Shown piece by piece: positions 17,850 through 58,819 of a stretch of DNA of 64,000 nucleotides. Position 1 is the stretch's first letter. Each line of letters begins with the position of its first letter. Made by a program: the position numbers and the translations under genes. Origin of the DNA: Paenibacillus sp. CC-CFT747 (GTDB lineage: Bacteria; Bacillota; Bacilli; Paenibacillales; NBRC-103111); assembly GCA_030323305.1 (NCBI GenBank), contig CP106741.1, positions 3,216,001 to 3,280,000 on the forward strand. Direction: 5' to 3'. The notes beneath the pieces are model-generated. The model worked only from the letters and a program-made list of their open reading frames with translations, was not told the origin of the DNA and searched no databases.

Positions 17850-17851
17850 CC

Positions 17852-17908
17852 AAGAAAAAGCGGAAGCGAAGGCTCCAGGCCTTACGCTTCCGCTTTTTCT
17901 TCTTCTTC
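17852..17908. terminator. Bidirectional terminator between araC-type and cation efflux genes
   Basis: Arms of 15 nt (GAAAAAGCGGAAGCG and its complement CGCTTCCGCTTTTTC) flank a short loop. The right arm overlaps the end of the minus-strand gene. Confidence 0.75.
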
Positions 17909-18832
17909 CTTATGCCGCAGGAATTCCTTCCCGTACTCCCCGTGGGGATGAATCTTGGCATGCTCCATCTGGATGGTGGAGTGCTCGATGCCGTACTTGT
18001 TTTTCAACGTTTCGTTAATGGCCAGGATGATGCAGAACGGCTGAATCTTCTCGTCGATGAAGACGTGGGCGGTGAGCGAGTAATGATCCGTAGATACGGC
18101 CCACAGGTGCATTTCGTGAACATCCTCTACGCCTTCCACTAGCCCGATGTCGCGGCGGATCTCCTCGAGGTCGAATTGCTCCGGTACCGACTCCATTAGA
18201 ATGAGGTACGACTCCCGGATAATTTTGGCCCCGCCGACAAAAATAATACCGCCGATGACGATACTGATAACCGGGTCCACGATCGTCCAACCCGTAAAGT
18301 AGATAATAATGGCGGAAACGATTACCCCAACCGAGCTCAGCAGATCCCCGATAAAATGCCACAAGGCGCTCTGCACGTTGAGGTTCTCTTCTTCCTTCAT
18401 GCTGCGGCTCAGCACAATGGTCAGCACGATGTTGACGATTAGCCCGATGACCGCGATCGTGAGCATCGTCCCGAGCTTCACCTCTTCCGGATGGATCATC
18501 CGGTTGATGCCCTCGACGAAGATTCCGACGGCGATCACCGCCAACGCAAGCCCATTCAGGAACGAGGCGATAATTTCGAACCTCAGGTAACCGAATGTAT
18601 ATTTGGAAGTCGGCGGCCGGGTAGCCATATAGATGGCGACCATGCTAAGCCCGAGGGCGAGCACGTCGGATATCATGTGAGCCGAGTCGGAGAGAAGCGC
18701 CAAGGAATTGGAGACCAGGCCTCCGATAATTTCCACGATGGTAAAGAACGCGGTGAGCAGCAGGGTGGTCCACAGCGTGCGTTTGGACTTGCTTTGCTCT
18801 TTGACATGGTGAAGATGGTGGTAATCGGACAT
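17882..18832 (-). CDS. Cation diffusion facilitator (CzcD-like metal/H+ antiporter)
   Basis: A 316-residue CDF transporter exporting Zn2+, Co2+ or Cd2+ across the membrane. Six transmembrane helices, with the metal site in helix 2 (LLSDSAHMISDVLALG, the HxxxD pattern) and helix 5 (LWHFIGDLLSSVGV), and a C-terminal cytoplasmic domain (GVEDVHEMHLWAV). The N-terminus is His-rich (DYHHLHHVKE), as in metal-loading leaders of this family. Start ATG 18832 follows GGGAGG; the open frame upstream of it lacks a ribosome-binding site. Confidence 0.9.
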   Translation of the reverse strand: MSDYHHLHHVKEQSKSKRTLWTTLLLTAFFTIVEIIGGLVSNSLALLSDSAHMISDVLALGLSMVAIYMATRPPTSKYTFGYLRFEIIASFLNGLALAVIAVGIFVEGINRMIHPEEVKLGTMLTIAVIGLIVNIVLTIVLSRSMKEEENLNVQSALWHFIGDLLSSVGVIVSAIIIYFTGWTIVDPVISIVIGGIIFVGGAKIIRESYLILMESVPEQFDLEEIRRDIGLVEGVEDVHEMHLWAVSTDHYSLTAHVFIDEKIQPFCIILAINETLKNKYGIEHSTIQMEHAKIHPHGEYGKEFLRHKEEEEKAEA

Positions 18833-23329: not shown

Positions 23330-25660
23330 CTATAGCTTCTTAACGATCACTTTTACAAGAAGGGCCGTCGCAGAGGTAATCAGAATCCTGTTGGGATCAA
23401 GAATCTTGACGGCGGGCTGGATGACTTGATTGTCGGGAGTCAGGATAAGGATATAAGGAGCGTTAGTATTCAGGTTATGAACGACAGTGGCGGAGAAAGC
23501 CGGCCCGTCCGGCGCAAGCGAAACGGTGGTCTGGTAAGTCTTTTCTGGATCATAGTCCACATAGAGGGCGGGGGCGGGGGGAGCAGGATTACATTATCCA
23601 GGCCGGTGTTGACGGAAATAACCCGAATCATCGGATTGGCGGTGTCGTAATAAGCCACGCTTAATGGAGCGGAACCGGTATAGCGGATGGTGGAGTCCTT
23701 AAGAAACAGGGTGAAGACGGAACGGACGCCTGGCTTTGTATGGTCGACGAGATAGGCGAAGCTGGAATTGTTGAGGAGTACCGTGGAGCGGGTAAGGCGG
23801 ATAGTGCCGCCCGGCTGGTTGAAATCGGTTTCTATCAGAGCGGTCAGCTTGTTCGAAGTAAGCTCGGAATCTACCACAATGGTAACGGCCTGGGAACCGG
23901 GGGTATTGATATTGCCGGCTTTCAGAACGGTATCGGTGAAGGAGGAGCGTACGATGGTGACCTCCCGGCTTTTGGTCCCGAAGATGTGGTTATTGACCGC
24001 GCTGTCGAGGAAGGTGCAGAATTCCATGTAGATTTTTTCGCTGGCCGCCATTCCGTTAACTGTCTGGAGATTGACCCGGACATTGTTGAAGGTGCTGGCG
24101 AGCACACGATAGGTTTTCAGGGTGATGTCCCGCGGAACGGAGGAGTCCAAGACACAGCCTTCCAGCTTGTTGATGGTGATCACGGGAGCAGTGACCAGGG
24201 AAGAATAACGGATCCGGTTGCCGCGGAAGACAGTAAGCTCAGACGCCCCCATATTCAAGTTAGGGATATCCGTTAGATGATTGTCCGTTACATGGACCTG
24301 ATAGGTGGAGTTTCCGAAAAACGAGAGATTTCCGCCGGTAAGGGAATTGCCGGTAATCTCCACGTACGCGTCTGCAAAGTTCGAATTCATCAGCCCGAGG
24401 GTCGTTCCGCAGTTGTAGATAACATTGCCCTTCAGAACGGCGAACCGGAGACTGTACAGGTTGATGCCGACGGAATCCATGTTATAGATGTGATTGTTCT
24501 CCACATGTAGGGAATAGCAGCCGGCGAGAATGCCGTGGTTGCTGCCGTACATCAGGTTGTGGCGGATGACGCAGTTGTCTCCGTAGGAGTCCTCCTGGTT
24601 GACGGCATAGCGGGTGGAGTCGGGGAAGATAGGCTTCCCGTCGAGAAAGCGGCCGCTTCCTTTTCCATTGTCCCGGATAACATTGTGCTGGAGCACGTTA
24701 TAGCTGCCCCCAAGCGTAATGCCGCCCCGGTGTCCGTTGAAGAGCTCGTTGTATTCCACTGTGTTGTGATGGGGAATGGAACCGAACTTCAGCGTAAGCT
24801 GCATGTTTTTGGCCGGTGAGGTCTCATTAAAGAACACCAGGCGCATCTTGGCGGCCCCGTCGGGGATTGTGATGTCGGTGTAGATTTTTTCGGCGCAGGG
24901 AGCCCAGGAAGCTGTTGTCGGCCCGGTAATAGAAGACGTCGATTTCTCTTGTGGTCAATGCGGTCAGGCGGGCGTAACCGGCACCGGCCACGAGAAAGGA
25001 AGAGTAAGACGGATTCGCAGGAAGGGAGAGAAAGCCGGAGGTCAGCGTATTGCTGGAAGGGACAGGCTGTCCTGTAGTATAATCCAAGGCACCGAGCGTC
25101 AGATTTAAGTTGAATTCCGCTATTTCCCGGGAGGCAGTGCTGGCAAAGGTGACATTGTCCCCCATATAATCCCGGACGGTGCAGTGGCTGATTGAGCTAA
25201 AGCGTGTGCTTCTCTGAAAAGAGACGCCGTAGGTGCCTTCCATTCGGGCCTCATTCGGGTTCAGGAAGCTGCGGTCGTCCCGGTCCCCGATTATCGTACC
25301 GCCTGTTAGATGAGCATCCGTTACGTTATCGAACACGATGCTTTTGCCGCCGAAGTTGTAGTAGTCCGTCGTGGTGCGGGGGTCGAAGGGAGATTTGGTG
25401 TCCGAGTCGTAGATCACCTTCAGCGTGGAGCCGTTCAGATGGAACGTCAGATGGCTCTGCATTTCAATGGCACGCGGGTAGCATAGGGCGTAAGAGCCTT
25501 CCGGCAGCACCGCCTCCGGGTACCCGTTCTCCCTGGCGTAACGAAGCGCGCGGTTGATTCCCTGAATGTTCGCATCCGCCATGGCATAGTCTGCAGGCGT
25601 GTAGGGCTTGGCGGGCAGCCCTTGATTAATGCCCCACCGGCTCAATTCAATAAGATACAT
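23330..25660 (-). CDS. Right-handed parallel beta-helix (pectate-lyase-like) protein, first copy (two frameshifts)
   Basis: A protein of about 777 residues. The N-terminal Pectate_lyase_3-type start (YLIELSRWGINQGLPAKPY, then INRALRYARENGYPEAVLPEG) resembles tail-spike and polysaccharide-lyase folds. It continues as many short beta-helix coils (ENNHIYNMDSVGINLY, LKGNVIYNCG) and ends in a small beta domain. No signal peptide at this start. One A is missing in the run at 24885-24890 and one base in the run at 23577-23582. Its N-terminus is similar to the secreted beta-helix protein at 55884-58061 (shared LSRWGI and the helix after it), so they are paralogs placed at either side of the matrix locus. 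Predicted role: binding or cleavage of a polysaccharide. Confidence 0.7.
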
Positions 25661-27213: not shown

Positions 27214-27360
27214 ATGTCCGCGGAGACCTGGGAATCAATCGAGATCGACGAGGAATGGATGGAGCTTATTTCGAAAGCGCGTGGTATGGGTCTTACGGTT
27301 GAAGAAATCCGGCAGTTTTTTCAGGAAACGCTTAGCGGTTCGGGACCGGTAAAGCGTTAG
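27214..27360 (+). CDS. sinI: SinI-like antirepressor
   Basis: A 48-residue protein whose central part, DEEWMELISKARGMGLTVEE followed by IRQFF, matches the Sin antirepressor dimerisation hook of B. subtilis SinI (same ...EW.EL...A....S.EEIR.. pattern). SinI binds the SinR repressor and frees matrix promoters. Start ATG 27214 has the strong ribosome-binding site AAAGGAGGGA. It lies immediately before the epsAB-like genes, whose promoter carries SinR-type operators. A SinR gene is not in the window. The match is by pattern only, but length and motif order fit. Confidence 0.85.
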   Translation: MSAETWESIEIDEEWMELISKARGMGLTVEEIRQFFQETLSGSGPVKR

Positions 27361-27413: not shown

Positions 27414-27442
27414 TTGACATGTTCGCTATAAAGAACTAGTAT
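27414..27442 (+). promoter_or_regulatory. Promoter of the epsAB-like operon with operator filling the spacer (site 2)
   Basis: TTGACA 27414-27419 and TAGTAT 27437-27442 are separated by exactly 17 nt, and 16 of those are the operator GTTCGCTATAAAGAAC (27421-27436). A repressor bound here would block RNA polymerase. Confidence 0.85.
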
Positions 27443-27528: not shown

Positions 27529-27562
27529 ATGAGGCGCAGCCGGAATGTCGAAGGGAGAAGAA

Positions 27563-28330
27563 ATGAAGGTGGACATCAACATTAAAGAGTATCTGTTTAT
27601 TCTGAAGAAGCGTCTCTGGATTCTTGTTCTGTTCATTGCCGGAGGGACCGTGCTGGCTTCGCTCTACAGCTCGACCAACTACCGTCCGGTTTATTTGGCA
27701 TCGACGAAGCTGATCGTGAACAAAACGGTCACCGAAGAGCAGCTCGGCCGGCAGGAAATCGATTACGGAGCCATCGGGGTCAACATCGGCCTGATCAGCA
27801 CCTACAAGGAGATCATTAAAACACCGGCCATTATGGACAAGGTTGTCCAGCGGTACCCGGACCTCAACCTTACCTCGGAACAGCTGATCGGTATGATCAA
27901 TGTTTCGAGCCTGAACGATACCCAGATCATGACCATTGCGGCGCAGTATTACTCCTACGATAAGGCGGCTACGATCGTCAACGCCGTTTCGGAGGTATTC
28001 CGTGCGGAGATCCCCAAGATCATGAAGGTCGACAACGTCACCATTCTTAACCCGGCCAAATCCAAGGAGCATCCGGTTCCCATCAACAAGAAATCCAATC
28101 AGATCATCCTCCTCGGCTTCGTCGGTTCGTTCGTGGCGGCGGTGGGACTCATTCTCTTTCTGGAAGCCATGGACGATACGTTGAAAACGGACGAGGACGT
28201 CCGTACCATTTTCCGGCAGCCCGCCCTTGCCGTCATTCCGCGAATGAAAGCGAAGGAACGGCGGCCGGCAAGCCGGGTCCAATCTCGGGAAAAGGCAGGG
28301 GAAACGACATATGCCGCAACCATCCGCTGA
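27563..28330 (+). CDS. epsA: EpsA/TkmA-like chain-length determinant and tyrosine-kinase modulator
   Basis: A Wzz-family membrane protein of 255 residues that controls exopolysaccharide chain length and activates the partner BY-kinase. Two transmembrane helices bracket an extracellular domain: IKEYLFILKKRLWILVLFIAGG near the N-terminus and ILLGFVGSFVAAVGLILFLE near residue 190, with the Pro-rich family motif PAKSKEHPVPINKK just before it. ATG 27563 follows AAGGGAGAAG; an upstream ATG (27545) lacks such a site. The 3' end overlaps the kinase gene by 20 bp. Confidence 0.88.
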   Translation: MKVDINIKEYLFILKKRLWILVLFIAGGTVLASLYSSTNYRPVYLASTKLIVNKTVTEEQLGRQEIDYGAIGVNIGLISTYKEIIKTPAIMDKVVQRYPDLNLTSEQLIGMINVSSLNDTQIMTIAAQYYSYDKAATIVNAVSEVFRAEIPKIMKVDNVTILNPAKSKEHPVPINKKSNQIILLGFVGSFVAAVGLILFLEAMDDTLKTDEDVRTIFRQPALAVIPRMKAKERRPASRVQSREKAGETTYAATIR

Positions 28331-28979
28331 AACCTCCGTTGTCATGCAGAACCACCCGGCCTCTATCACTTCAGAAGCCTATCGGTCGCTTAGGTTCAAT
28401 CTGGACCGTTCCCTGGAGCAGGGGCTGAAGAGCATTGTCGTTACCTCCCCGGGAAGAAAGGAAGGGAGGACCACCACCGCCGTGAACCTGGCGGCCGCCT
28501 ACGCCCAGCTGGGCCGTAAGGTGGTCCTGGTGGATGCCGATCTCCGCCATCCTTCCCTCCATGCCGTATTCGGCCAAACCGGCCGGAAGGGGCTTGCCGA
28601 CTTCCTGAGCCGTCCCTGTGAGGTTTCGGATATCGTTATAGAATCTCCGGTAGAGAATCTGTCGGTTGTCTATGCCGGCGCCCCTCCGCTCCATCCGACG
28701 GAGCTGCTTGCTTCCGGACGAATGAAGGAGCTGCTGGCCGAGCTCGGGAAGAACTACGATCTGATTATTGCGGATACGTCCTCCGTCCTGCCCTCCACCG
28801 ACTCCCGGGTCGTGGCGGCCCAATGCGACGGGGTGCTGCTCGTTATTGAATTCGGCAAGGTGAAGAGGAGCGCGGCCAAACGGATCGCTTCCGAACTGGA
28901 GCACGCCAAAGTGAACCTGCTGGGAATCGTATGGAACAAAATTCGTAAGCAGGAAGCGAAGGCGTACCTGTATACCTAG
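28311..28979 (+). CDS. epsB: EpsB-like bacterial tyrosine kinase with altered Walker A
   Basis: A 222-residue cytoplasmic BY-kinase partner of the preceding modulator; such kinases cycle phosphorylation to drive EPS assembly. The Walker A' motif VVLVDADLRHPSL is canonical. The Walker A loop reads SPGRKEGRTTTAVN, with Arg at the invariant Lys position. The Walker B segment LIIADTSSVLPSTD lacks the usual DTPP. The C-terminal Tyr cluster is reduced to AYLYT. No missing-base signature explains this, so activity may be reduced or the protein may be a regulatory pseudokinase. Ends the upstream half of the eps cluster. Confidence 0.82.
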   Translation: MPQPSAETSVVMQNHPASITSEAYRSLRFNLDRSLEQGLKSIVVTSPGRKEGRTTTAVNLAAAYAQLGRKVVLVDADLRHPSLHAVFGQTGRKGLADFLSRPCEVSDIVIESPVENLSVVYAGAPPLHPTELLASGRMKELLAELGKNYDLIIADTSSVLPSTDSRVVAAQCDGVLLVIEFGKVKRSAAKRIASELEHAKVNLLGIVWNKIRKQEAKAYLYT

Positions 28980-29058
28980 CCTGATGAAAGCAGAAGATCA
29001 TTTACGGATAAGGCACTAGGCAGCCGGGCCGGCTGCAGAAAGAAGGGATTAAACCGTC

Positions 29059-30343
29059 ATGAGGCAGAAAAGATGTAAGCCATACCGCATCCAAGCCGGC
29101 GGGAGAGCAGCCGGTATCCTGATTCTCAGCTTCGCCTTCCTGGCCGGCTGCTCGGGGACGACGCCAAGCGCCGAGTCCGTCGCCTCCGCCGAGCAGGTCA
29201 CGGTCAAGACCGTGAAGGTCATCAAAGCCTCCCGCCAGAAGCTGGGAGATCCCGTCCAGCGGCCGGCGGATGCCGTGGCTTCGGCCGAATTCGAAATCAT
29301 CAGCCGTGCCGGCGGAACGATAAGCCAGCTGACGAAGAAGCGGGGGACCGGGCCGTGCAGGGTGAAGTCATCGCTCTCTTGACCTCGGGTGACTCCGAAG
29401 CCCAGAGGGACCGGGCGAAGCTTGCGGTCAAGACCGCCCAGGACGCGATCAGCCGGGCCAAGGATAATGCCAAGAAGCAGTGGGAAGCCCAGAAGCTCGA
29501 GATGAGCAATTCGGTGGTTAAGCTGGAGCAGACGATCGCCGAGCTCACCCGTACCTATAACAAGACCCGGAACGATTATGATGTGGGAGCGGCCACGAAG
29601 GAGCAGCTGTACCAGCTGGAGCTGCGTCTCTTGAATACCCGGACGGATCTGGAACAGCTTAAGCAGAAGCAGCAGGCTTTGGCCGAACCGGCTTCCTCCT
29701 TCTCGGAGCTGGAGACGGCTCTGGTGAACGCCCAGCTGACTTATCAGCAGGTGGAGAAGGGAATGGAGGATTACAAGGTTAAGGCTCCCGTAACGGGAAT
29801 CATCTCCGATTTGACCACCCTCGAGCCGGGAATGCCGGTACCGCAGGGGCCAAGCTGGGGCATCTTCAGAAGGTCGATCCCATCAAGATCAAGGCCCAGC
29901 TGTCGGAGAAAGATGTTAAGCTGATCGGCAGCAAAACGGAATTGACCTATACCGTTCCGGGCCAGACGGAAAGCAAGAAGGGAAAGATCAGCTTCCTCTC
30001 CAAAATCATGGATCCGGAAACTAGAACCTACGAGCTTAACCTGGAAGTTCCGAATCCGGATATGAGCCTTAATCCCGGCATGAAGCTGGCGGTTCAACTG
30101 ACGGAGGAACAGGAGCAGATCGGTCTTGCGGTTCCGTCCTATGCCGTCGTAAACGAAGGAGATAATCATTATCTCTTCGTCGTGGCCGGCGAAGCGGTGG
30201 AGAAGCGCAAGGTGGAGCTTGGAAGGGTCAGCGAGGACAACCAGGAAATCGTAGCCGGGCTGAAGGAAGGGGACGCCGTTGTGGTCTCCAATCCCGGTCA
30301 GCTGAAGGACAAGGAGAAAGTTCAAGCCGCTGCTGCGGAATAG
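29059..30343 (+). CDS. HlyD/RND-adaptor-like lipoprotein (two frameshifts)
   Basis: A membrane-fusion-type protein of about 428 residues. A lipobox (ILILSFAFLAGC) anchors it to the membrane outer face. Then come a lipoyl-like half, a long coiled coil (about 29400-29760), the second lipoyl half (YKVKAPVTGIISDLTTLEPG) and beta-barrel domains. A missing G at about 29347 and another at about 29850 split it; repair restores KKRGDRAVQGEVIALL and PQGAKLGHLQ. No cognate permease or ABC gene is adjacent, so it may serve the ABC exporters further on, or export of the secreted protein that follows. Confidence 0.78.
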
Positions 30344-30367
30344 CCCATAAAATGGAGTGACGGCAAA

Positions 30368-32075
30368 GTGAAGAGAAAAGGTACCAAAACTGTCGCGGTG
30401 ATGATTCTGTCGGGGGCCCTGATGCTGCCCGGCGCGCCATATCTGGCGATTGCCCAGGAGAGTCCTCCCGCCTCCATGCAGGCGGCCGGCTATTATCTTC
30501 CGAACTCGGTTCGCGCCGTTGTCAAAACTGTCCTGAACGAAAAAACGGCCGAAGGCACCCGCATCGGAGCCGTGGTGAAATTATACAACGAGGGGACGAG
30601 GGTGACCCGTGTTCCCGACTTGGAATTGAAGGCCAAGACGACGGACGGGGTTTCCTATACTTTGAGCCCGAGCGCCTCCAATCCTAGGTCCATTCAGCCC
30701 CGAACGTCAGTCGAAGTAAGCTATATGATGGCGGTTGACCGGGAAGACGAGTTTTCGTTGGAGGAGCTGTCTTGGGTAGAGGTGGATGAGTATGTCTATC
30801 CGAAGAAAGAGACCTACATCCAGTCTGTTCCCGTGGGAGGAATGGAATGGAGGGGGAGGGAACGGTATGGAACAAGCCCTCCGCTTCTGTTAAATGGGGG
30901 ATTCCTTCTCCCTGCCGGATCTGACGACCGCCCTGGAATTCAAGGCGGACGGACTCGATGAGCAGATCACCCCGCAAGGAAATACGACCGTCGTCCGGTT
31001 GCTGGTGACGAACAAGAGCAAAGAGAAGCGTTCGATCCCGGATTTCCGGCTGAACGCTTTATCCGATAAAGCCTACACCGGACAAAGACTCGAGCAGGGG
31101 AATGTTACCCTGGAGCCCGGAGAGCAGCGTTATGTTCATTTTACTTTCCCTATCGAGAATCGGCTCGACCTTCACAGCTTGATGGTGCTGACGCCGGAAA
31201 CCTTTACCGCTGACGACAAAACGACCGTCACCTATTATGTGGGCCGCCTGGCGGTCACTCTTCCCGAGGACAGCAACGCCCAGCCCTTTATCCGTAAGCC
31301 CGTCGCCTATGACTGGAACAGCCGGATCCCCTTTGATTCGCTTAACCGGCTTATCCATCCGAAACTGGAGGTAGCCTTGGCCGACCTTCACCTGAATGAA
31401 AGCGAAGGAGGAGGCTTTAAGTCCGGAATCGCCAAATTCAAGCTCATCAACCGGAGTGACCGGCCCCTTCCCCTGCCGAATTTTCAGACGCAGTGGGTAA
31501 GCGCCGACGGCAGCAAATATGCCGGAACCCGCCAAAGCACCAAAGTCGATTCTCTCATGCCCAATGTCGGGTATGTGCTTTACTATTCCTTCGTTCTCCC
31601 GGCATCGGAGAAAGGCGACCGGGTAGGAATGGAGCTGCTGGACGGAGTGACGGCTGCCCCTTATAAGGCAACCATTGCTTCTCTTCAGACCGGGATTAAG
31701 CCGTCCGTCAAAGGACTCGATTTCTACCCGTTCCAGGTGAAGCTTAATGATTGGACGGTTACTCCGGAGCAGGCCCAGCCGCAGGCTACTACCTTCACGT
31801 ACAAGGTAAACCTTGATCTATCCGTCACCCGTCAGGACGAGGTCGTGGTGGATCAGACGTTTACCCGGATGAAGGTCGAGCTGCTGGACAGCCAAGGAAA
31901 TACGCTTGGGGCCAAGCTGCTTCCGCTCACGGGAGAGGGCAGAGTCGAAAGCGGAATCCAAACGATAGACATCCGTTCCATCCGGTCCGTGAGGGATTTC
32001 TCCTTGCGTGTCTATGAAACGGTCGAGACTCCGTTCGGGGAAGCCGAAAGGCTGCTCGGTACCTTCGCTCCGTAG
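30368..32075 (+). CDS. Secreted protein of unknown function with repeated beta domains (one frameshift)
   Basis: A protein of about 569 residues with signal peptide (KTVAVMILSGALMLPGAPYL, then AIAQ). The mature part appears to consist of three or four immunoglobulin-like beta domains, each with a phrase of the type VVKLYNEGTRVTRVPDLELK, RLLVTNKSKEKRSIPDFRLN or IAKFKLINRSDRPLPLPNFQ. These resemble DUF4352/telomeric-repeat-like adhesive domains, but I recognise no family. A missing G at about 30897 breaks the frame. It follows the lipoprotein by 24 bp, suggesting one unit, perhaps a matrix surface protein. Confidence 0.7.
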
Positions 32076-32093: not shown

Positions 32094-32127
32094 TTTACAA
32101 GGAACGCCATTGTTCGCTATAATGAAC
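32094..32127 (+). promoter_or_regulatory. Promoter with overlapping SinR-type operator (site 4) before the candidate RiPP precursor
   Basis: TTTACA 32094-32099, an 18-nt spacer and TATAAT 32118-32123. The operator GTTCGCTATAATGAAC (32112-32127) overlaps the -10 box. Confidence 0.75.
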
Positions 32128-32164
32128 ATGGACGTAAAAGTCCAGTCGAATGGAGGGGTTAGCC

Positions 32165-32356
32165 TTGAAAGAGTACCAGCGACCGCTTGTTCTGGAGCAT
32201 CGGCCTATCCGCTTTGAGACCGCTCAAAGCTGGAACAAGGGCCGAGGAAACCTGAATCACCCCGGGACGGGAAACGGCGGGATCCAGTATCCCAATCCCC
32301 CTTATACCGGGCCGCATAACGGCGGCGGGAACAACGGGAATGGAAAAGGCAAGTAA
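32165..32356 (+). CDS. Candidate RiPP precursor peptide (Gly/Asn-rich core)
   Basis: A 63-residue peptide starting at TTG 32165 with GGAGGGG 6 nt upstream. The N-terminal part KEYQRPLVLEHRPIRFETAQ has the YxxP-x-L leader pattern that PqqD-type recognition elements bind in lasso precursors (compare EWKKPALEV in the lasso peptide at 38983). The C-terminal part, from about SWNKGRGNL onward, is rich in Gly, Asn, Pro and Tyr. It lies 67 bp before kinase, PqqD, peptidase and exporter genes and is followed by a terminator hairpin, as is usual for precursors that need high expression. No Asp or Glu lies in the putative core, so a lasso isopeptide ring is impossible; the modification, if any, is unknown. 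Confidence 0.65.
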   Translation: MKEYQRPLVLEHRPIRFETAQSWNKGRGNLNHPGTGNGGIQYPNPPYTGPHNGGGNNGNGKGK

Positions 32357-32422: not shown

Positions 32423-33204
32423 ATGATACCCATGTATACGACGATCGGCGAGCATTGTGTAGAGCTTGTCTGCCGGTCAGAGAGACTGCTGGCCGGTCTG
32501 AAGAAGAGCTTCCGCTTCAGCTTCTCGAGCAGCCGGAGGCCCGACCTGTTCGTTCAAGTGAACGAAGGGTATGGGGTTCCTTTTGTGGACGATCATGTTG
32601 AAATCACCAAGCAGGGGGAGTGATCTCCTATGCTCGTGCGGATTACCTGCTTGAGACGGAGAGCGACTACATTCACTCCGAAATCTCGGCTTATAATGAG
32701 CTTGCCTTAAAACACGCTTTGATGAACCTGTACAGCGCTTATCTGATTCATCACGAATGGGGGCTGCTGCTTCATTCCTCCTGTGTGGTGGACCGCGGGC
32801 GGGCCGTAGTGTTCGCGGGACCTTCCGGAGCCGGCAAATCGACCGCCGCCCAGTTGTCCCAGCCGAGGGAGCTTCTCTCCGACGAGGCCACGCTGGTCCG
32901 GATTACGCCAAGAAAGATAACGGTATACGATTCCCCCTTCCGGAGCGAGCTTCACGGATCGCCGGATCAGCCCGTCTGCCCGCTTTCGAGCATCCAGCTT
33001 TTGAAGCAGTCTCCGATTAATCTCCGCAATCCGATCTCTAAGCCCAGCGCGCTTCTTCAAATGACGGATAAGGTCTTCTACTGGGCCCATGATCCGGAAG
33101 AGACGCGTAAAGCCTTCAGCCTTCTGGTTACGCTTACAGAAGCGGTTCCCGTTTACGAGCTGTTTTTTCAGAAGAACGACACCTTTTGGGAGCTGATTTC
33201 ATGA
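32423..33204 (+). CDS. HPr-kinase-like protein of the first RiPP operon (one frameshift)
   Basis: An HprK-related kinase of about 261 residues after repair. P-loop GPSGAGKST lies near the middle, preceded by LLLHSSCVVDRGRAVVFA and followed by LLSDEATLVRI (family motif with catalytic Asp). Relatives in paeninodin-type clusters (PadeK) phosphorylate the C-terminal Ser of the precursor; here the precursor ends in Lys, so another target residue would be needed. A missing G at about 32615 breaks the frame. The stop overlaps the start of the PqqD gene (ATGA). Confidence 0.8.
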
Positions 33205-33473
33205 CCATCCGTTATGTCCGGAGCAAGGACTATGACACCGTTCATATGGAAGGGGAATGGGTCATTCTAGATGCCGATCAGTTCACGGTTACCAAGCTGA
33301 ACGAAACCGGCGGCTTCTATTGGTCACTGCTTGCCGAACCGCGAAGCGCAGAAGAGCTTCTGGAGAAGCTGGGCAGACACTATACGGTACCGGCCGGCTC
33401 GGCCCGCGAAGAGCTGGAGGAGTTCCTCCTTCATCTTGTGCGCTGCGGACTCGTTGAGCATGAAGCGGCTTGA
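33201..33473 (+). CDS. PqqD-family RiPP recognition protein (first RiPP operon)
   Basis: A 90-residue PqqD/B1-type protein, the RiPP recognition element that binds precursor leaders and presents them to modifying enzymes. The winged-helix pattern is seen as VILDADQFTVTKLNETGGFY, WSLLAEPRSAEELLEKLG and FLLHLVRCGLVE. It overlaps the upstream kinase by 4 bp and the downstream peptidase by 14 bp, so translation is coupled. It is diverged from the lasso B1 at 40144. Confidence 0.85.
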   Translation: MTIRYVRSKDYDTVHMEGEWVILDADQFTVTKLNETGGFYWSLLAEPRSAEELLEKLGRHYTVPAGSAREELEEFLLHLVRCGLVEHEAA

Positions 33474-33915
33474 GACGGAGCTTGCTCTGATCCGACATCG
33501 GCTTCACAGCCAGGGTTACATGGATTTACCGGCGGTGGGATCCAGCATGTTCCCCTACATCCGGCAAGGCATGATCTGCCGGTTTGTTCCCGTTAAAGCT
33601 CCGGATATAAGTCCGGGGGATATTCTGTTGTTTCACGACCAAGCCGGCCGCCTCGTAGCCCATCGATGCCTACGCCTGCCGAAGGATAACGGAGAAACCG
33701 GATATGTCTGCAAGGGGGATGCGAATGTGGGTTATGATCAGCCGATCGAAGCCGGATGCATCGTGGGGAAGCTTGCCTATGTTCATCGAAGACGAGCAGG
33801 GGAAAGGCTGGAGCCGATGGCGGCTTCCGTATGGCGGTTCGCCGCTATGAACCTGCCGTTCACTTCTCCGATCGTGAGAAGATATTTGGATTGGAAGGAA
33901 CGTTTATTATCTTGA
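33460..33915 (+). CDS. S24/S26-type (signal-peptidase-like) protease of the first RiPP operon
   Basis: A 151-residue predicted peptidase with the type I signal peptidase Ser motif (VGSSMFPYIRQGM), the GDILLFH strand, and a His in VAHRCL plus KGDANVGYD, as in ER-type (Ser-His) signal peptidases such as SipW. It lacks an N-terminal membrane anchor, unlike Sip proteins, so it may be cytosolic or peripheral. It occupies the slot that the B2 leader protease takes in the lasso operon, which suggests it removes the leader of the candidate precursor at 32165. Overlaps PqqD at its start and the exporter at its stop (TGATG). Confidence 0.78.
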   Translation: MKRLETELALIRHRLHSQGYMDLPAVGSSMFPYIRQGMICRFVPVKAPDISPGDILLFHDQAGRLVAHRCLRLPKDNGETGYVCKGDANVGYDQPIEAGCIVGKLAYVHRRRAGERLEPMAASVWRFAAMNLPFTSPIVRRYLDWKERLLS

Positions 33916-35712
33916 TGAGCACGGTCGCAACTCGGATTCAACGAATAGGCGGAGAGCTGAGGCGGACCATAGTTCTGGTTCGTCCCTATCTCTGGACGCA
34001 CCGCATGGCTTATGCCGCTTTGGCGGTGCTGTACGGCTTGGAGCTTGCCCAGACGCTCGTCTACGCCTGGTACTACGGGGCTTTAACCGATGCGGCGATT
34101 CATACGCAAATGGATCGCTTGAAAAGCCTGCTGCTGCTTGGGGCCGGTCTTCTGGCGGCGAGCGCCGCCATCGCTTACCTGCATGCGTTAGCCGAAACCG
34201 CCGCCACTACCGGTGTAAAGCGGGATATGGAAAAAGCTCTTTACAAAAGACTGCTTCTCCTCCCCGCCTCCGAGCTGTCCGGGCACCGTTCGGGAGACCT
34301 CGTCTCGAGGTTCGCCAACGACCTTCACAGCATCGGTGGGGTATTGGGCGGCGGCTTGATGGAGATCCTCCGCCTCCCTGTGGTTTATGCCGCCGTCTTC
34401 GTGTACCTCTATCAGCTTAACGGCACCATCGCCTTGGTCAGCCTGTGCGCGGCTCCGGCAGCCCTTGCCGCCGGGGCGGCGTCGGGCTGGCTCCTTCGAC
34501 GCAACGGACGTGAGGTCCAGCGGCTGCTCGGCACCATGAGCAGCTTGCTGAATGAGACGATTCGCGGCCATGGAGTGGTGCGGGCCTATGCTCTGGAGAG
34601 GATGCTCTACCGTAAGTATGCCGGCTTCAACCGGGAGCTGTACCGCTTGGAACGGCAGAACGCGAAGCTGAGCGGAGCCTTTCAGGCGGGGGCTTCGCGG
34701 TTAGCTCGGTCGTTTTTATGACCAGTCTCGGACTGGGCGCTTACTTTCTTTCCCTTCAGATGATGACGGTAGGCAGCCTGCTCACCTTTCTCAACCTGGT
34801 CAATCACCTCGTCTACCCGCTGACGGGGCTCGCCGGGCAGTGGGCTTCCTTCCAGAGGTCGCTCGCGGCCCTTGACCGGATCGCCCCCTGCTTTCCGCCC
34901 CGGTACCGGCAACCGGTCTGCCGGAATACATACCGCCGGCCCCGCTTAAGAAGGCCATCCGCTTCGAAGGCCTTTGCTTCCGGTATAAGGGACAAACACG
35001 GCTGTTCGAAGACTTCCGGCTTACGGTTCCGGCTGGAAGAACGGTGGCCGTCGTCGGGCCAAGCGGAGCGGGGAAATCGACCCTTTTGCAGCTGCTGGCC
35101 GGTTTTCAGCAGCCTGAGGCAGGAGAGATTTGGCTGGACGACAGGAGGGGAAGCTCTATGGATTTGGCGGAACGCCGCTCCTATTTCTCGCTTGTTTCCC
35201 AGGAAACCTTCCTTTTCGACGGGACGGTCCGGGAGAATCTGTTAGGCGCAAGACCCGGTGTGACCGAAGCGGAACTGAGGGAGGCGGCCCGGAATGCCTG
35301 CCTCCATGAAGAGATTATGGCGCTTCCCGATGGTTATGATACTCCGATAGGGGAGTTGGGGGCGAAGCTGTCGGGCGGCCAGAGGCAGCGGCTGGCCATC
35401 GCCCGGGCCCTGCTTCGGAATGCTCCGGTGCTGCTGCTCGACGAGGCAACCTCTGCACTGGATACGGAAACCGAGCGGGACGTGAAGACGGCTCTGGAGA
35501 GGCTGATGAAGGGAAGAACCACTATTGTGATCGCCCACAGGCTGAGCACTGTACGGGATGCGGACCGGATCGTCGTCCTGGACAAAGGCCGGATGGTGCA
35601 GGAAGGCACCCACGAGGAGCTGGTGAAAGCGGAAGGGCTGTACCGCCGTCTTCATCATCGGAAGGAGACCAAGGATAAGGAGCCGATGCCGGTTGATGTA
35701 TACCCTGCTTAG
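33915..35712 (+). CDS. ABC exporter, fused membrane and ATPase domains (first RiPP operon; two frameshifts)
   Basis: An exporter half-transporter of about 600 residues. Six-helix membrane domain, then an ATPase with Walker A GPSGAGKST, Q-loop SLVSQETFLFDGTVRENL, signature KLSGGQRQRLAIARALL and Walker B VLLLDEATSALD with H-loop IVIAHRLSTV. No C39 peptidase domain, so leader removal must be done by another protein. Missing G at about 34690 and C at about 34900. Probably exports the mature RiPP. Operon position: directly after the S26-type peptidase. Confidence 0.87.
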
Positions 35713-36818
35713 ATCGCTGTATGACCCTTCGGGCAAGCTTCCCCGGCTTCGGAGACCCCTCAGTACCAGGAGGCGCTTCGGCAAATAGAAGAATCCGGTA
35801 TTTGCTGCCAGGTGTACTATCTTCTGCACAGCCGGAACCGGCTGGAGGAGGTCCCGGCATTCTTTCGTAATCGGCTGCAGCAGGTCCGGTCGGATTCTTT
35901 GTACTTGAATCTCTATCTCGGCCGTTCCCTGCAGAAGCTGCTGCAGAGCCTGGAGGAAAGAGGGATTCCGGCCATTCCGCTGAAGGGAGTGCCTTTTGCC
36001 GAGCGTTATTTCAGCGGGGCGAGTGCGCGTCCGACTTCGGATATCGATTTGCTCATCCATCCCGTTCACCTGGAGGCAGCGGAGGAATGCGTCCGTTCCC
36101 TCGGATATGACGAGGAAGAAGAGCGGATTCCCGCCCACTTTCACCGGAGCTTCAGCCGCAGGCTGCCGCATACTCCGGTCCCGCTGACAGTGGAGCTTCA
36201 TTGGGGTCTGCTGAAGGAGAACACTTCCGCGCTCACAATGGATGCCTTCTGGGCTGCTTCCGAGCCGTACGGAAAGTTCCGCTATATCCGCAGGCTGTCC
36301 GATTATCATGAGTTCTATATGATCGCCCTTCACGGCTGGAAGCATAACCTGAATTCGGCCAAATATTTGCTTGATCTGGTTCAGCTCGTTCATGTGCTGG
36401 GGGACCGTCTGGACTATTCCAGGCTCCTACGGGATGCGGCTGTCGATCGAACCTCGCGCAGGCTGAAATGGACCCTTTCCGTCCTTTACCGTCAATTTCC
36501 GCATCTTCACGCCATTCAGCCGCTTCTCTGGAAGCTGCCCGAACGGCTGTATTGGGAGCCGGAACACGGACAGCATCCCCCGGGGCCATTGGCCGTTACC
36601 GGAATTTGCTGGTCACGCAGCATATGCTCTTTGACTCCTTCCTTCATGCCCTGCCGGGAGCCGCCCGGTGGCTGTTTCCTTCCCGCGTGGAGGCCGGCTT
36701 CGAGCTGGAGAAGGGACTGACGGACAGCCGCCACGGGTCCTTGATTCCCCTCTATCTACAGAGAGGGCGGCACTTGATCCGGGCCTTGAGCCAGGGAACA
36801 AAAAAAGTCGAAAAATAA
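35696..36818 (+). CDS. NTP_transf_5-type nucleotidyltransferase (first RiPP operon; two frameshifts)
   Basis: A predicted nucleotidyltransferase of about 375 residues of the group found in paeninodin-type lasso clusters. Nucleotidyltransferase core: LKGVPFAERYFSGASARPTS then DIDLLI (G...DxD metal site) and VELHW as third acidic strand. Target in RiPP pathways is not established; addition of a nucleotide or phosphosugar to peptide or immunity functions are possibilities. Missing C at about 35737 and G at about 36580. The start overlaps the end of the exporter gene. Confidence 0.75.
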
Positions 36819-36831
36819 AAAAGAAAAGCGA

Positions 36832-36882
36832 TTGACAACGAATAGGCAAGATGGTATTCTAACCTTGTTCTTTATAAAGAAC
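36832..36882 (+). promoter_or_regulatory. Promoter of the lasso operon with SinR-type operator at the start site (site 5)
   Basis: TTGACA 36832-36837, a 17-nt spacer and TATTCT 36855-36860. The perfect palindrome GTTCTTTATAAAGAAC occupies 36867-36882, covering the predicted +1. Confidence 0.85.
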
Positions 36883-36981: not shown

Positions 36982-36997
36982 GTTCTTTAAAAAGAAC
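36982..36997. promoter_or_regulatory. SinR-type operator (site 6), downstream partner of site 5
   Basis: GTTCTTTAAAAAGAAC, 115 bp after site 5 and 34 bp before the lasso cyclase start. Confidence 0.8.
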
Positions 36998-37030: not shown

Positions 37031-38966
37031 ATGAGCGCCATTGCCGGGATCTACAACTTCTCAGAAGACTCGCTATCCGGTGAATGGGCCAAGGCTATGA
37101 TGGATGCGATGGCCCATCATCCGGCAGACGATTGCCAGGCCTGGCATCATGGTCCCCTATTTCTCGGCTGCCTGTCCCAATGGATCACACCCGAATCCGT
37201 CGGAGAAACGCTTCCCTATTATGATTCAGTCAACCGGATCGCCGTCACGGCTGATGCCATTCTGGACAACCGGCAGGAGCTGTTCGACCGGCTTCAGGTC
37301 AAGCGGGAGGACCGCAGCGGAATGCCGGACAGCCGCCTCATCGGACTCGCCTATGCCCGGTGGGGAGAGCGGGCGCCGAAGTACCTGATCGGGGATTTTG
37401 CTTTCATGATCTGGGATGAAGGCAAACGCCGGTTGTTCGGAGCAAGGGATTTCTCGGGAGGGCGAACACTTTACTTTACCAGGGCCGGAGGCAGGTTCGC
37501 CTTCTGTACGCTGATCCGGCCGCTGCTGAAGCTGCCGGGAACCGACCGGAGCATCAATGAGCAGTGGATGGCCGAATATCTCGCAGTAAGCGGGATGATC
37601 GACGTACTGGATGTCACCGCCACGGTCTACCGGGAGATCGAACAGGTTCCTCCCTGCCACAGCATTACGGTGGAAGGGGAGCGAGTTACCCTTCGGAAGT
37701 ATGACGCCTGGTCTCCGGAGAAGGAGCTGAAGATCTCTTCCGACGGGGAATATGTCGAGGCCTTCCGTGAGGTATTCCAGCAAGCGGTGGATTCCCGGCT
37801 GCGAACCCATCATAAAGTGGCAGCACAGCTAAGCGGGGGCTCGATTCCGGGTCTATCGTAAGCTTCGCCGCCAGAACACTCCGCAGCCGGAACAAAACGC
37901 TTCATACGTTCAGCTACATACCGGGTCCGGATTTTAAGGATTTTACGTCCCGGAGCTTACTGGCGGATGAGACGCCGTTCATCAAGTCGACCGTGGATCA
38001 CGTCGGAGGCATCCATGACCACTATCTCCACTTTCCCGGCAGGACCCCCTTCAATGAAATGGATGACTTTCTCGGAGCCATGGAATCACCGTATAAATTT
38101 TTCGAAAATTCCTTTTGGCTGAAGGGAATGTTCGAGAAGGCAGCCGAGGAACGGGCGGGGATCCTGCTGAATGGAGGCAGGGGAAACCTCACCATCTCAT
38201 GGGGTTCGGCCGTCGACTACTACGGTCTTCTCCTCAAGAAACTGAAGTGGGTGCGTCTGGCACGGGAGCTTAACCTCTACAGCCGCAATGCAGGGGAAGC
38301 CGGTTCCGGAGACTTCCCGAAATCGCACAGGCGGCTTTCCCGATGGCCGGCAAGCTTTTCTCCCGGGAGGGGTACCGCCTTCCCGCTCTCATCCATCCGG
38401 AATTCGCCCGCCGGACTCAGGTTTACAGTCGGTTAAGGCAGCACGGAATGGACGAATCGGGATGGTTCGGCGCCATCAATGTTTTTGACCAGAGGCATCG
38501 GCATTTCGAGGACGGGTCTCACTGGAACGCGAGCAACTCGCTCGCCGCCAAGCTGTCTCTCCGCTACAAGGTATGGAAGCGGGATCCGACGAATGACATT
38601 CGGGTCGTGCGGTTCTGCCTCTCTGTTCCAGAAGAGCAGTATGTCCGGGACGGGATGGACCGGGCGCTGATCCGCCGGTCGACCGAAGGGGAGCTGCCCG
38701 ATATGGTGCGCTTGAATCACACCGTTCGGGGAGTGCAGGGTGCCGATTGGGTACACCGGATGATCCCGGAATGGTCCGCTTTTGTAGCCGAAGCCCAGCA
38801 GATGAGCCGGGACCCCCTTATGGGGGAATGGCTCAACATGGAAGCCATAAAGGCGGCCGCAGGAAAAGCGGAGAAAGGCGTCCGCCCGGAGGATGTACTG
38901 GATCCCGGATTGCGCATTCTGATGCGCAGCCTCATCGTCTATCGCTTCATGACCAAACATGCTTGA
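37031..38966 (+). CDS. Lasso cyclase (asparagine-synthetase-like C protein; two frameshifts)
   Basis: Macrolactam synthetase that activates the side-chain carboxylate in the lasso core with ATP and joins it to the core N-terminus. About 646 residues. The N-terminal glutaminase-like domain begins MSAIAGIYNF and lacks the Cys2 nucleophile of true AsnB, as expected for lasso C proteins. The ATP-pyrophosphatase loop is SGGLDSG once the missing G at about 37842 is restored; a second missing base (T) is at about 38302. The start follows GGAGGAAACC. First gene of the lasso operon, 16 bp before the precursor gene. Confidence 0.9.
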
Positions 38967-38982
38967 AAGGAGGTGAACCCAA

Positions 38983-39120
38983 ATGAAAAAAGAATGGAAG
39001 AAGCCTGCTCTGGAAGTTCTGGAAGTTCAAGCAACGGCAGCATCCACGACTAACGGCCCTTTCACGGACGAAGCTTACATCCCTGGTCAGTGGAGCAGCA
39101 GCCCTCGTTTCACGAGCTAA
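38983..39120 (+). CDS. Lasso peptide precursor, paeninodin-type
   Basis: A 45-residue precursor with a very strong ribosome-binding site (AAAGGAGGTGA). The leader MKKEWKKPALEVLEVQATA matches the paeninodin leader pattern (aromatic-xx-P-x-LEVL-V, Thr near the junction). By alignment the core starts at Ala20 after Thr18-Ala19 and reads ASTTNGPFTDEAYIPG, then a C-terminal part ending PRFTS. The ring acceptor would be Asp29 or Glu30. From Ala20 these are positions 10 and 11, outside the usual 7-9; starts at Ser21, Thr22 or Asn24 give conventional ring sizes. The C-terminal Ser suits phosphorylation by the adjacent kinase. Confidence 0.9.
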   Translation: MKKEWKKPALEVLEVQATAASTTNGPFTDEAYIPGQWSSSPRFTS

Positions 39121-39148
39121 TCAATCATGCTAATTAAGGCATGTATAG

Positions 39149-39175
39149 GCCCTTATGCACTACGGGCATAAGGGC
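39149..39175 (+). terminator. Hairpin attenuator between lasso precursor and kinase
   Basis: Perfect arms GCCCTTATGC/GCATAAGGGC with a 7-nt loop and no strong T tract. This is the usual precursor-stabilising or attenuating hairpin in lasso operons. Confidence 0.75.
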
Positions 39176-39213
39176 TTCATACATAGCCTGATCAACGGCT
39201 GGGGTGAACAGAC

Positions 39214-40142
39214 ATGCCCGTAATCGGGAAAGACCTTACCTATCAGGCATTTGGATTCCGCATAGAAAGTGAAGTTCCCTTGCCCGAGCTTGCTCCTTGG
39301 AGCGGGCCGGAAACGAACCTGGATATTGAAATCAAGTTTGGCCCGGTGCCGGACGAGGAGGAGCTGATGGCTCAGCCTTACCACCACCTGGTCCATGATC
39401 ATATAGTACGTTTTTACATCCCGGAACACGCATCTTTTGCCGTTGAGAAGGGACGAACGATAACCGTTTCACCTGTTCCCGGTGCGGACCCGGCATTGCT
39501 TCGTTTGTATATTCTCGGAACCTGCATGGGCTCGATTCTTATGCAGAGAAAGATATTCCCTCTTCACGGAAGCGCCCTTTCCATTGATGGCCGGGCCTAT
39601 GCCATCGTAGGGGATTCGGGGGCAGGCAAGTCCACGCTCGCCTCTGCTCTCATGAGCCAGGGATACCGGCTGCTTAGTGACGATGTGATAGCGGTAACGC
39701 TCGATGGAGAGGACAGGGTCCCGGTTGTGACCCCTCTTATCCTCAGCAGAAACTGTGGCAGGAGAGCCTCGACCATTTTGGAATGGAATCCGGAGGCTTC
39801 GAATCCATCTACGGTCGCGAGACCAAGTACAGCGTACCGGTTTCCTCTCAATTCTGCACGGAACCCCAGCCGCTCGCCGGCCTATTCGAACTGACGAAGA
39901 CCGCCGAACGGGAAGTGGAGATGGCTCCCGTCCCGAAACTGCAAAGCCTTCCTCTTCTGTTACAGCACACCTACCGGCACTTCCTGATTCCCAGACTCGG
40001 CCTGACGGATTGGCATTTCAGCACCTCGGCGGCTATTACGCAGCATGCCGGATGTTTCCGGCTGAACCGCCCATCGACCGGCTTTTCCGTACCTCAGTTA
40101 GTCTCATGCATTCTCGATACGATCCGGAAAGGGGACCAATGA
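39214..40142 (+). CDS. HPr-kinase-like lasso peptide kinase (one frameshift)
   Basis: A kinase of about 310 residues related to paeninodin PadeK, which phosphorylates the C-terminal Ser side chain of the precursor. P-loop GDSGAGKST with LLSDDVIAV after it, and LHGSALSIDGRAYAIV before it. A missing T at about 39735 breaks the frame; repair gives VVTPSYPQQKLWQESLDHFG, typical of the family. It lies between the precursor and B1 genes, and the precursor ends in Ser, so both sides of the proposed reaction are present. Confidence 0.85.
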
Positions 40143-40143
40143 C

Positions 40144-40434
40144 ATGACGAACCAGACGATAGCTCGTACCGACCGCATTATCCCGGTCCAAGGCAACATT
40201 GTCAGCAATATGGGTGGGGAAAAGGTGATGCTCAGCATCCATAACAGCAAGTACTACAACCTGGGGGAAATTGGAGGGAAAATTTGGGAACTGCTGGAGA
40301 AGGGCTCGAACGTAGAGGAACTGGTGACGGCACTGACAGAGGAATATGCCGTTGAACCGGCCGAATGCGAAGAGCACGTCGCTTCCTTTCTTCAAATGCT
40401 TCACAGGGAAGGCCTGATCCAGATTCAAGGCTAA
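40144..40434 (+). CDS. Lasso B1 (PqqD-type leader-binding) protein
   Basis: A 96-residue RiPP recognition element. The pattern GNIVSNMGGEKVMLSIHNSK, YYNLGEIGGKIWELLE and a C-terminal helix pair is typical of lasso PqqD proteins. It binds the leader (the YxxP-like EWKKP region) and delivers the precursor to B2 and C. One base separates it from the kinase stop. Confidence 0.93.
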   Translation: MTNQTIARTDRIIPVQGNIVSNMGGEKVMLSIHNSKYYNLGEIGGKIWELLEKGSNVEELVTALTEEYAVEPAECEEHVASFLQMLHREGLIQIQG

Positions 40435-40468
40435 GCACGTTATTTCTTAAGGGAGAGGGAGGTTCCTT

Positions 40469-40924
40469 ATGGGAACGGCAGAAAAGATAAGGAAGTTCCT
40501 TTCCCTCGATCTGGCGTCGATGCTATTGCTGGCGGAAGCCTATATTCTGATGGGCTGGGGGCGGATTCAAGTCTCGCGTTCTTTTGCGAAGGTAGCGCCG
40601 TCGCTTGGGGAGAGTATGGAGGAGACCACCCAGGACGAGATTCCGGCCGATCACCGCTCGCTAGTGCTCGTTCACGATGCGGTGGAAGTCATGAGCCGGC
40701 ATACCCCTTGGGAGAGCAAATGCCTCGTCCGAGCCATTGCCGCCCAAATCATGCTGAAGCGCAGGAGAATTGCCAGTACCCTTTATTTGGGGACCGGAAG
40801 GGATGAGGCCGGTCAGCTGATCGCCCATGCCTGGCTGCGCAGCGGGCCTTACTTCATAACCGGAGCGGAAGGCAGGGAAAAGTTTGCCGTTGTCGGCAAA
40901 TTTGCCAAGAACCCGGGCCGGTAA
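40469..40924 (+). CDS. Lasso B2 leader peptidase (transglutaminase-like)
   Basis: A 151-residue cysteine protease that cleaves the leader from the core in an ATP-assisted way with B1 and C. Catalytic Cys in WESKCLVRAIAAQIML, His in LIAHAWLRSG and Asp region after it; LYLGTGRDEAG is the typical intervening strand. An AGGGAGAGGGAGG ribosome-binding site lies upstream. Full family length. Confidence 0.93.
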   Translation: MGTAEKIRKFLSLDLASMLLLAEAYILMGWGRIQVSRSFAKVAPSLGESMEETTQDEIPADHRSLVLVHDAVEVMSRHTPWESKCLVRAIAAQIMLKRRRIASTLYLGTGRDEAGQLIAHAWLRSGPYFITGAEGREKFAVVGKFAKNPGR

Positions 40925-40947
40925 GATTACGAAGAAAGGGGAACAGG

Positions 40948-42137
40948 ATGGACACATTCCGATTGGACACAACCGAATTCTCCAGGGAGCTTGCCGTGCT
41001 CCTTCAGCTATTAAGGGAGGAGGCAGGGGCTCCGGGAAGAGGAACCGTTCAAGCCGCGGAGGAGCTCCGCGGCTTGAACGGGGAGCTACTGGTGCAGCTG
41101 GCCCGCCATCATCGGGTCTATCCCCAGCTTTATTCTAAGCTGCGCGCGCATGGGAAGGAGGTTCTTCTCGCTCCTGTCATGAAGTCCCTCCAGCGGGATT
41201 ATCAGGCCAACACCTTTGAAATGCTTCGTCTCGGAGCGGAAATGAACAGCCTGTGCCGGCAGCTCGAAGAGGAAGATATTCGCACCATCGTTCTTAAAGG
41301 ACCGGTTCTTGCGGCCGATCTCTACGGCGATCTGTCCCAGCGCACCTGCGGAGATCTGGATATTCTCGTGCCTCTGGATAACCTGGAGCAAGCGGAAGCA
41401 CTCTTAAGCCGGCTGGGCTATGAGAAGGACGAATACATCGAAACGATTCTGAATGATTGGAAATGGCGGCATCACCATGTCACCTTCCTCCACCATACCA
41501 AAGGCTTCAAGGTGGAGGTCCATTGGCGGCTGGGTCCCGGACCGGGGACGGAGCCGGCGTTTGAAGACCTGTGGGCAAACAGGAGAATAAGCAAGGCTTC
41601 CGGGTATCCTGTCTATTATTTGGGGAGAGAGGATTTATTTCTGTTTCTCGTCACCCACGGAGCCCGGCACGGCTGGTCCCGGCTCCGCTGGCTGACGGAT
41701 ATCGACCGGCTCTCCGTCCAGAGCCTGGAGGAAGACCGTCTAGTAAGCTTGCTGCGCCAGTTCAAGCAGACTCACGTCGCCGGCCAGGCGTTGGTGCTGG
41801 CATCCGCCCTGCTCGGGACCCCTCTTTCCCCGGGCTTGCCAAGCTCGCCGGAACGAAGCGGGCCCGCCGTCACGCGGAAGGAGCGCTGTATTACGTCAGC
41901 CGGATGATCAACCTTCATTCCGAGCCGCTTCCCGATGAGGTGTCCCGCTACCATAAACGTCACTTGTTTACACTGATGTCGCCCTATCATAAAGCCTTGT
42001 TCGTGATGAGCTTCCTCTATCCGTATCCCGAGGATGCCGAAACCTTGCTTCTGCCGAAGCCGCTGCATTTTCTGTACTTCCCCCTTCGTCCCTTCCTGTG
42101 GATGTGGAGGAAAACCAAGAAGCTAGCCTTATCGTAG
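40948..42137 (+). CDS. NTP_transf_5-type nucleotidyltransferase (lasso operon; one frameshift)
   Basis: A protein of about 397 residues, paralogous to the nucleotidyltransferase at 35696. Core LKGPVLAADLYGDLSQRTCG then DLDILV and VEVHWRLG carries the family's acidic residues. A missing C at about 41823 breaks the frame. It is a common but unexplained member of paeninodin-type clusters. Positions 41045-41081 of the coding sequence form a perfect 17-bp hairpin, described under findings. Confidence 0.78.
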
Positions 42138-44003: not shown

Positions 44004-44032
44004 TTGACATGTTCACTATAAAGAACTACTAT
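44004..44032 (+). promoter_or_regulatory. Promoter of the glycosyltransferase block with operator filling the spacer (site 7)
   Basis: TTGACA 44004-44009 and TACTAT 44027-44032 with exactly 17 nt between; GTTCACTATAAAGAAC (44011-44026) fills the spacer, the same design as at 27414. Confidence 0.85.
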
Positions 44033-58455: not shown

Positions 58456-58484
58456 TTGACATGTTCATTATAAAGAACTAAACT
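58456..58484 (+). promoter_or_regulatory. Promoter of the epsC-like operon with operator filling the spacer (site 11)
   Basis: TTGACA 58456-58461 and TAAACT 58479-58484 with exactly 17 nt between; GTTCATTATAAAGAAC (58463-58478) fills the spacer. Third instance of the same promoter design. Confidence 0.8.
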
Positions 58485-58576
58485 AATGATTAAGAGTTTC
58501 GGGAAATGCCTATGTTTTTGACGAAAAAGCCGAATTGATCGGCAGATAAGTGTGTTGTCATTTTTTTTGCCCAGTT

Positions 58577-58592
58577 GTTCTGTATAAAGAAC
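58577..58592. promoter_or_regulatory. SinR-type operator (site 12), downstream partner of site 11
   Basis: GTTCTGTATAAAGAAC, 114 bp after site 11, and again exactly 8 nt after a run of T residues. Confidence 0.8.
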
Positions 58593-58784: not shown

Positions 58785-58819
58785 AATGATTATTTTCACT
58801 AGATGAAAGGGTGAGCTTC

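Follow-up and report, generated by a model that had tools for sequence, protein, structure and literature searches.

What a reading frame of 63 codons with a TTG start encodes in Paenibacillus sp. CC-CFT747, and whether it encodes anything at all, is the question raised by a stretch of 64,000 nucleotides of contig CP106741.1, which as a whole is called the window here. The frame runs on the forward strand from the TTG at 32165 to the stop codon ending at 32356 (63 aa, MKEYQRPLVLEHRPIRFETAQSWNKGRGNLNHPGTGNGGIQYPNPPYTGPHNGGGNNGNGKGK), is preceded by a Shine-Dalgarno sequence GGAGGGG at 32152–32158 and is itself unbroken in the assembly of the window. We found it to be a real, conserved gene and not a chance ORF. 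The copy in a conspecific genome (G063) is 94% identical, and a clear relative is present in about 30 of 104 family genomes. The gene was also found on 47 named contigs from Paenibacillus, Bacillus, Neobacillus, Metabacillus, Domibacillus, Priestia, Fictibacillus, Rossellomorea and other genera, almost always with the same genes downstream. Since the scan of these 47 contigs used the pattern FETAQSWN, its hits share those eight residues by construction; whole-genome searches free of this constraint recovered the same block. Searches with Pfam and NCBIfam showed no model matching the peptide, and the string FETAQSW was not found in the literature searched.

The peptide gene, here called lppA, is the first gene of an operon in nearly all loci. 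The usual order is peptide, HprK-like kinase, PqqD-like RRE, SipW-like peptidase, MsbA-like ABC exporter and PF14907 nucleotidyltransferase. In the window all of these lie on the forward strand: lppK (HprK-like kinase, 32423–33204), lppB (discrete PqqD-like RRE, 33201–33473), lppS (SipW/archaeal-type signal-peptidase-like leader peptidase, 33460–33915), lppD (MsbA-like exporter, 33915–35712) and lppN (nucleotidyltransferase, 35696–36818). The positions corresponding to S29, F42, H68 and D93 of LppS are all present in the window and kept in every locus having LppS, and N33 of LppB is likewise kept in every locus having LppB. At the D70 position the LppB of the window carries Glu, a conservative change shared with several relatives, which counts against the match to the family discussed below. 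A hairpin resembling a terminator, located between lppA and lppK, was considered as a family feature and dropped, as it occurs in only 5 of 47 loci against a background of 2.4%.

Operon and peptide match the linear polyphosphorylated peptides (LPPs) first described by Popov et al. (Nat Commun 2026, PMC13381572), and the window gene is very probably the precursor of such a peptide, which would be cleaved, phosphorylated and exported with no ring, and whose promoter carries a predicted SinR-type operator. In the system of P. alginolyticus DSM 5050 (L073) LppB binds the YxxP leader, LppK places several phosphates on core Ser3, and LppS together with LppB cuts after T-1, for which S29, H68 and D93 are required (PMC13381572). 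Crystal structures of the RRE-leader pair have already been published. For this reference peptide we computed a mass of 7807.5, and of 4515.7 for its core of 45 residues, compared to reported values of 7808 and 4516; for the window core the computed [M+H]+ is 4443.7. The precursor motif YxxPxVLxHQxIxFETxxS is found in the window peptide as Y4QRP7LVLEHRPIRFETAQS22, with HR for HQ as the sole difference. Alignment to the P. alginolyticus LppA with its published boundary predicts a leader of 19 aa (MKEYQRPLVLEHRPIRFET, 32165–32221) with the YxxPxVL RRE-binding motif and the FET end, a core of 44 aa beginning AQSWNKGRGN (32222–32353) and, as the candidate phosphorylation site, Ser22, the third residue of the core (codon 32228–32230). 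That binding, phosphorylation and cleavage also run in the window system is what we infer by homology.

Among the relatives the leader pattern Y-x-x-P-x-[VI]-L-x-H-x-x-[IV]-x-F-E-T and the core start A-Q-S-W-N are near-invariant, and the remaining core is a variable tail rich in Gly, Asn, Pro and His. The leader Tyr of YxxP is missing in eleven relatives, all non-Paenibacillus (L077, L078, L082, L099, L100, L103, L105, L109, L110, L113, L114), where N, S, H, D, E or V takes its place. Judged from these sequences the Tyr rule is not universal, although this residue is reported as the main recognition factor.

A preliminary description of the frame had read it as a precursor with leader and core, on which the kinase, PqqD/RRE and S26-type peptidase encoded nearby would act, a view borne out by the operon and by the published family. 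Homologs next to S26-peptidase/PqqD genes, which it had proposed to look for, were found, and the leader boundary is nearly invariant among them. Its placing of the cleavage site in FETAQSW also holds, not so the rule of small residues at -1/-3 invoked for it: in P. alginolyticus the cut falls between FET and AQS and is fixed by F-3, E-2, T-1 and the RRE (PMC13381572). A cut between AQS and W, following the A-x-S rule of signal peptidases, was favoured at first and given up in view of the published cut after FET. The acceptors listed at that stage, Tyr, His, Lys and Asn, omit Ser22, whereas the acceptor in P. alginolyticus is core Ser3. That the peptide is no lasso precursor was correctly seen. 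It has no Asp or Glu after residue 18, so that the lasso feature of an acidic residue at core position 7–9 is missing. The missing acid is a true property of the window peptide and no rule of the family, since an acidic core residue is present in 33 of 48 relatives; nor is it the reason for excluding a ring, as the operon is simply devoid of a cyclase.

Loci from which parts of the operon were lost offer a natural test of how residues and enzymes belong together. Three genomes (G085, G073, G087) no longer have the lpp genes for kinase, peptidase, exporter and transferase, and searches of these genomes at E 1e-5 gave no relative of LppS, while LppB is kept at 75–82% identity. Their peptides retain the RRE-binding part of the leader and have lost FET and the core Ser. 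In two others (G078, G075) LppB, LppS and FET are all kept and the core has decayed. Cleavage site and peptidase are thus kept or lost together, and the RRE motif stays where the RRE stays. This is what the published mechanism would lead one to expect, and we take it as supporting evidence and not as proof, the comparison covering few and related genomes. Stepwise erosion is also visible in L134, L135, L136, L137 and L138, which hold lppA and lppB only, or lppA, lppB and lppS only; in eroded loci a well-kept RRE stands beside a precursor devoid of cleavage site and Ser. Other unusual arrangements were noticed as well. For L081 (Paenibacillus piri) and L140, a FETAQSWN precursor is an orphan, lacking an operon within 10 kb, and a further lpp operon of the same genome has a precursor of the FETLLSC type. 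Three cysteine-containing precursors of a FETxxS(C/S) subfamily occur within one 20-kb stretch in L067 (9980–10147, 6303–6620 and, on the reverse strand, 17786–17983).

The promoter of lppA, TTTACA-18-TATAAT at 32094–32123, agrees with the consensus at 11 of 12 positions. Its TATAAT -10 element lies inside a palindrome of 16 bp, GTTCGCTATAATGAAC, at 32112–32127. B. subtilis SinR binds GTTCTYT half-sites, best as the inverted pair GTTCTCTAAAGAGAAC, with a Kd of 300 nM (PMC3163267), and the palindrome in the window has the 7+2+7 geometry of the bound duplex. Spacing and palindrome fit at 32112, the half-sites being diverged (GTTCGCT / ATGAAC side), and other copies at the locus are exact; overall the half-sites of the window, lasso and polysaccharide boxes vary and are not all strict GTTCTYT. 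Further boxes are located in the wzz promoter (27421–27436, between the -35 TTGACA at 27414 and the -10 TAGTAT), before the lasso operon (GTTCTTTATAAAGAAC at 36867–36882 and a second box at 36982–36997), before glycosyltransferase genes (44011–44026) and, as a pair starting at 58463 and 58577 (58463–58592), before polysaccharide genes starting at 58811. A pattern search of the 6.2-Mb genome with GTTCNNTATANNGAAC gave seven copies, six of them within 31 kb (27421–58592), and none with a control pattern; the genes behind the six clustered boxes are wzz, lppA, those of the lasso operon and those for polysaccharide. The only copy of this genome (G000) outside the locus is at 2812110 (L123). In 31 of 48 loci, which are related and do not represent 31 independent events, a box is found within 250 nt of lppA, at a density about 34-fold higher than elsewhere in those loci, where "elsewhere" includes the boxes before lasso and wzz genes. 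The P. alginolyticus clade has no box before lppA and one before its lasso operon. Part of this clade (L069, L072, L073, L088) shows a different palindrome, [AC]TTCGTATATACGAAA, at -112 from lppA.

Genes for the switch itself are also at hand. A SinI-like anti-repressor gene is encoded at 27214–27360 on the forward strand (PF08671, 47.1 bits, cut-off 31.4). It is followed by wzz, cpsD, a HlyD-like gene and a gene for a conserved protein of unknown function (27545–32075, forward strand), which also lie upstream of the operon in most of the loci from Paenibacillus. A tandem pair of SinR-like genes is located 8 kb beyond the end of the window, at genome positions 3287923 and 3288453. The B. subtilis SinR and SinI sequences were used as search queries only. 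Of 20 genomes searched, 18 have a SinR homolog no more than about 45 kb from lppA; in the two exceptions it is on another contig (G135) or unlinked (G123). This arrangement of boxes and switch genes is seen again across the Bacillales. Two long, repetitive, secreted-looking proteins flank the locus on the reverse strand (55884–58061 and 23470–25660); judged by eye from the translations they resemble parallel beta-helix polysaccharide lyases.

How well does the reading as an LPP precursor stand against other explanations? The TTG start and the low complexity of the C-terminus could speak for a chance or untranslated ORF. This reading has a negligible probability, being refuted by the existence of homologs, with strong conservation over the Bacillales, a fixed gene order and a good ribosome-binding site before lppA. 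Alternatively, the lasso machinery next door, with its AsnB-like cyclase and B2, could take the peptide as a second substrate, which would make it an odd lasso precursor or one cyclised through Asn. In favour of this, a paeninodin-type cluster with AsnB-like cyclase, kinase, B1, B2 and nucleotidyltransferase (37031–41907, forward strand; PF13471, PF05402) and its own PadeA-type precursor (38983–39120, forward strand; NF033524 above cut-off) lies 5 kb downstream and has kinase, RRE and nucleotidyltransferase families in common with the lpp operon. The two are nevertheless separate systems. Cyclase and B2 peptidase are absent from the lpp operon, and the only cyclase in the window belongs to the lasso operon. 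Roughly half of the lpp loci, or more, have a lasso cluster within 10 kb, while many genomes hold the lpp operon with none at that distance. The neighbouring lasso leaders carry W (WxxP) and the LPP leader Y (YxxP), matching the published rule that paeninodin RREs discriminate against a Y leader (PMC13381572), and the core in the window is free of acid. In view of lasso-free loci and leader difference we rejected cross-processing of LppA by the lasso machinery, and we regard the second-substrate reading as very improbable. In a nucleotide search against the conspecific genome the lpp operon region is about 96% identical and the alignment breaks off in the lasso block, 37661–42050; this cluster has apparently been exchanged or evolves rapidly.

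A relic, with the operon broken in this strain and the peptide no longer made, would explain why lppK (near 32614), lppD (near 34688 and 34885), lppN (near 35741 and 36577) and two upstream genes, the HlyD-like one and the unknown one, are frameshifted in the window, and stepwise loss in relatives would fit. However, the losses relative to G063, at 29342, 29846, 30852, 32614, 34688, 34885, 35741 and 36577, are of one base each and almost all of them fall in G/C runs, G063 has these genes open, and genome completeness is lower here (90.65 vs 99), as assembly error would give. The frameshifts are probably sequencing or assembly errors and a relic is improbable, if somewhat less so than a second lasso substrate. 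The regulatory link invites a different doubt, namely that the palindromes belong to another regulator and that matrix genes cluster with SinR genes by coincidence. SinR binding is predicted here from geometry and half-site, the half-sites deviate in part from GTTCTYT, and the tandem SinR-like proteins could differ in specificity. Against this stand the 7+2+7 spacing of a duplex that SinR binds at 300 nM and the position of sinI and/or sinR directly upstream of lppA in seven loci (L077, L085, L089, L099, L100, L109, L113) with no polysaccharide genes within 10 kb. We consider another regulator unlikely, though it is the most serious of these alternatives.

For the LPP reading, the following course of events is predicted. 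A sigma-A promoter with its -10 element within the SinR-type operator would drive lppA, and the SinR/SinI switch is therefore predicted to control the operon and would turn it on with the neighbouring polysaccharide and lasso operons during matrix building. LppB would bind the leader motif YQRPLVL, LppK would phosphorylate Ser22, and LppB would present the leader's FET end to LppS, a Ser/His peptidase. Cleavage after Thr19 would free the 44-residue core AQSWNKG..., to be exported by LppD with no ring formed; LppN would probably add a further group to the phosphate, a step unproven in any member. Since the family is already published, the addition made here is the predicted regulatory link. The main text of PMC13381572 makes no mention of SinR or an operator. 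It reports that lppB, pbaB1 and a polysaccharide gene are induced together in stationary phase, which fits a shared switch. The biological role of LPPs was left open by their discoverers, who called a role in biofilms a tempting speculation (PMC13381572). The shared SinR-type operator and the sinI/sinR genes at the locus make this speculation directly testable in these strains. We tentatively suggest, with somewhat less than even confidence, that LPP, paeninodin lasso and polysaccharide locus form one SinR/SinI matrix regulon, in which the phosphate-bearing, Gly/Asn/Pro-rich LPP would be a secreted matrix component or modifier and not an antibiotic.

In comparison to known systems, the window shares with the LPP system of P. 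alginolyticus DSM 5050 the leader motif, the FET end, core Ser3, the catalytic and RRE residues, the six core genes in the same order and the lasso and polysaccharide neighbours. It differs by its shorter leader (19 vs 27 aa), its TTG start, the Glu of LppB at the D70 position and the SinR-type box overlapping the -10 of lppA, which P. alginolyticus lacks before this gene. Paeninodin-type lasso systems have an HprK-like kinase, a discrete RRE, a PF14907 nucleotidyltransferase and an ABC exporter in common with LPP; they alone possess a macrolactam cyclase, a leader peptidase of the cysteine type (B2), a leader with WxxP and an acidic ring residue, and the LPP operon has a SipW-like peptidase in place of the cysteine B2. 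With the SinR/SinI switch of B. subtilis the locus shares a SinI-domain gene, a SinR homolog of 62% identity, inverted GTTCTYT-type boxes with the same spacing and polysaccharide operons among the targets, whereas the regulon predicted here adds the LPP and lasso operons and has two tandem SinR-like genes by the locus.
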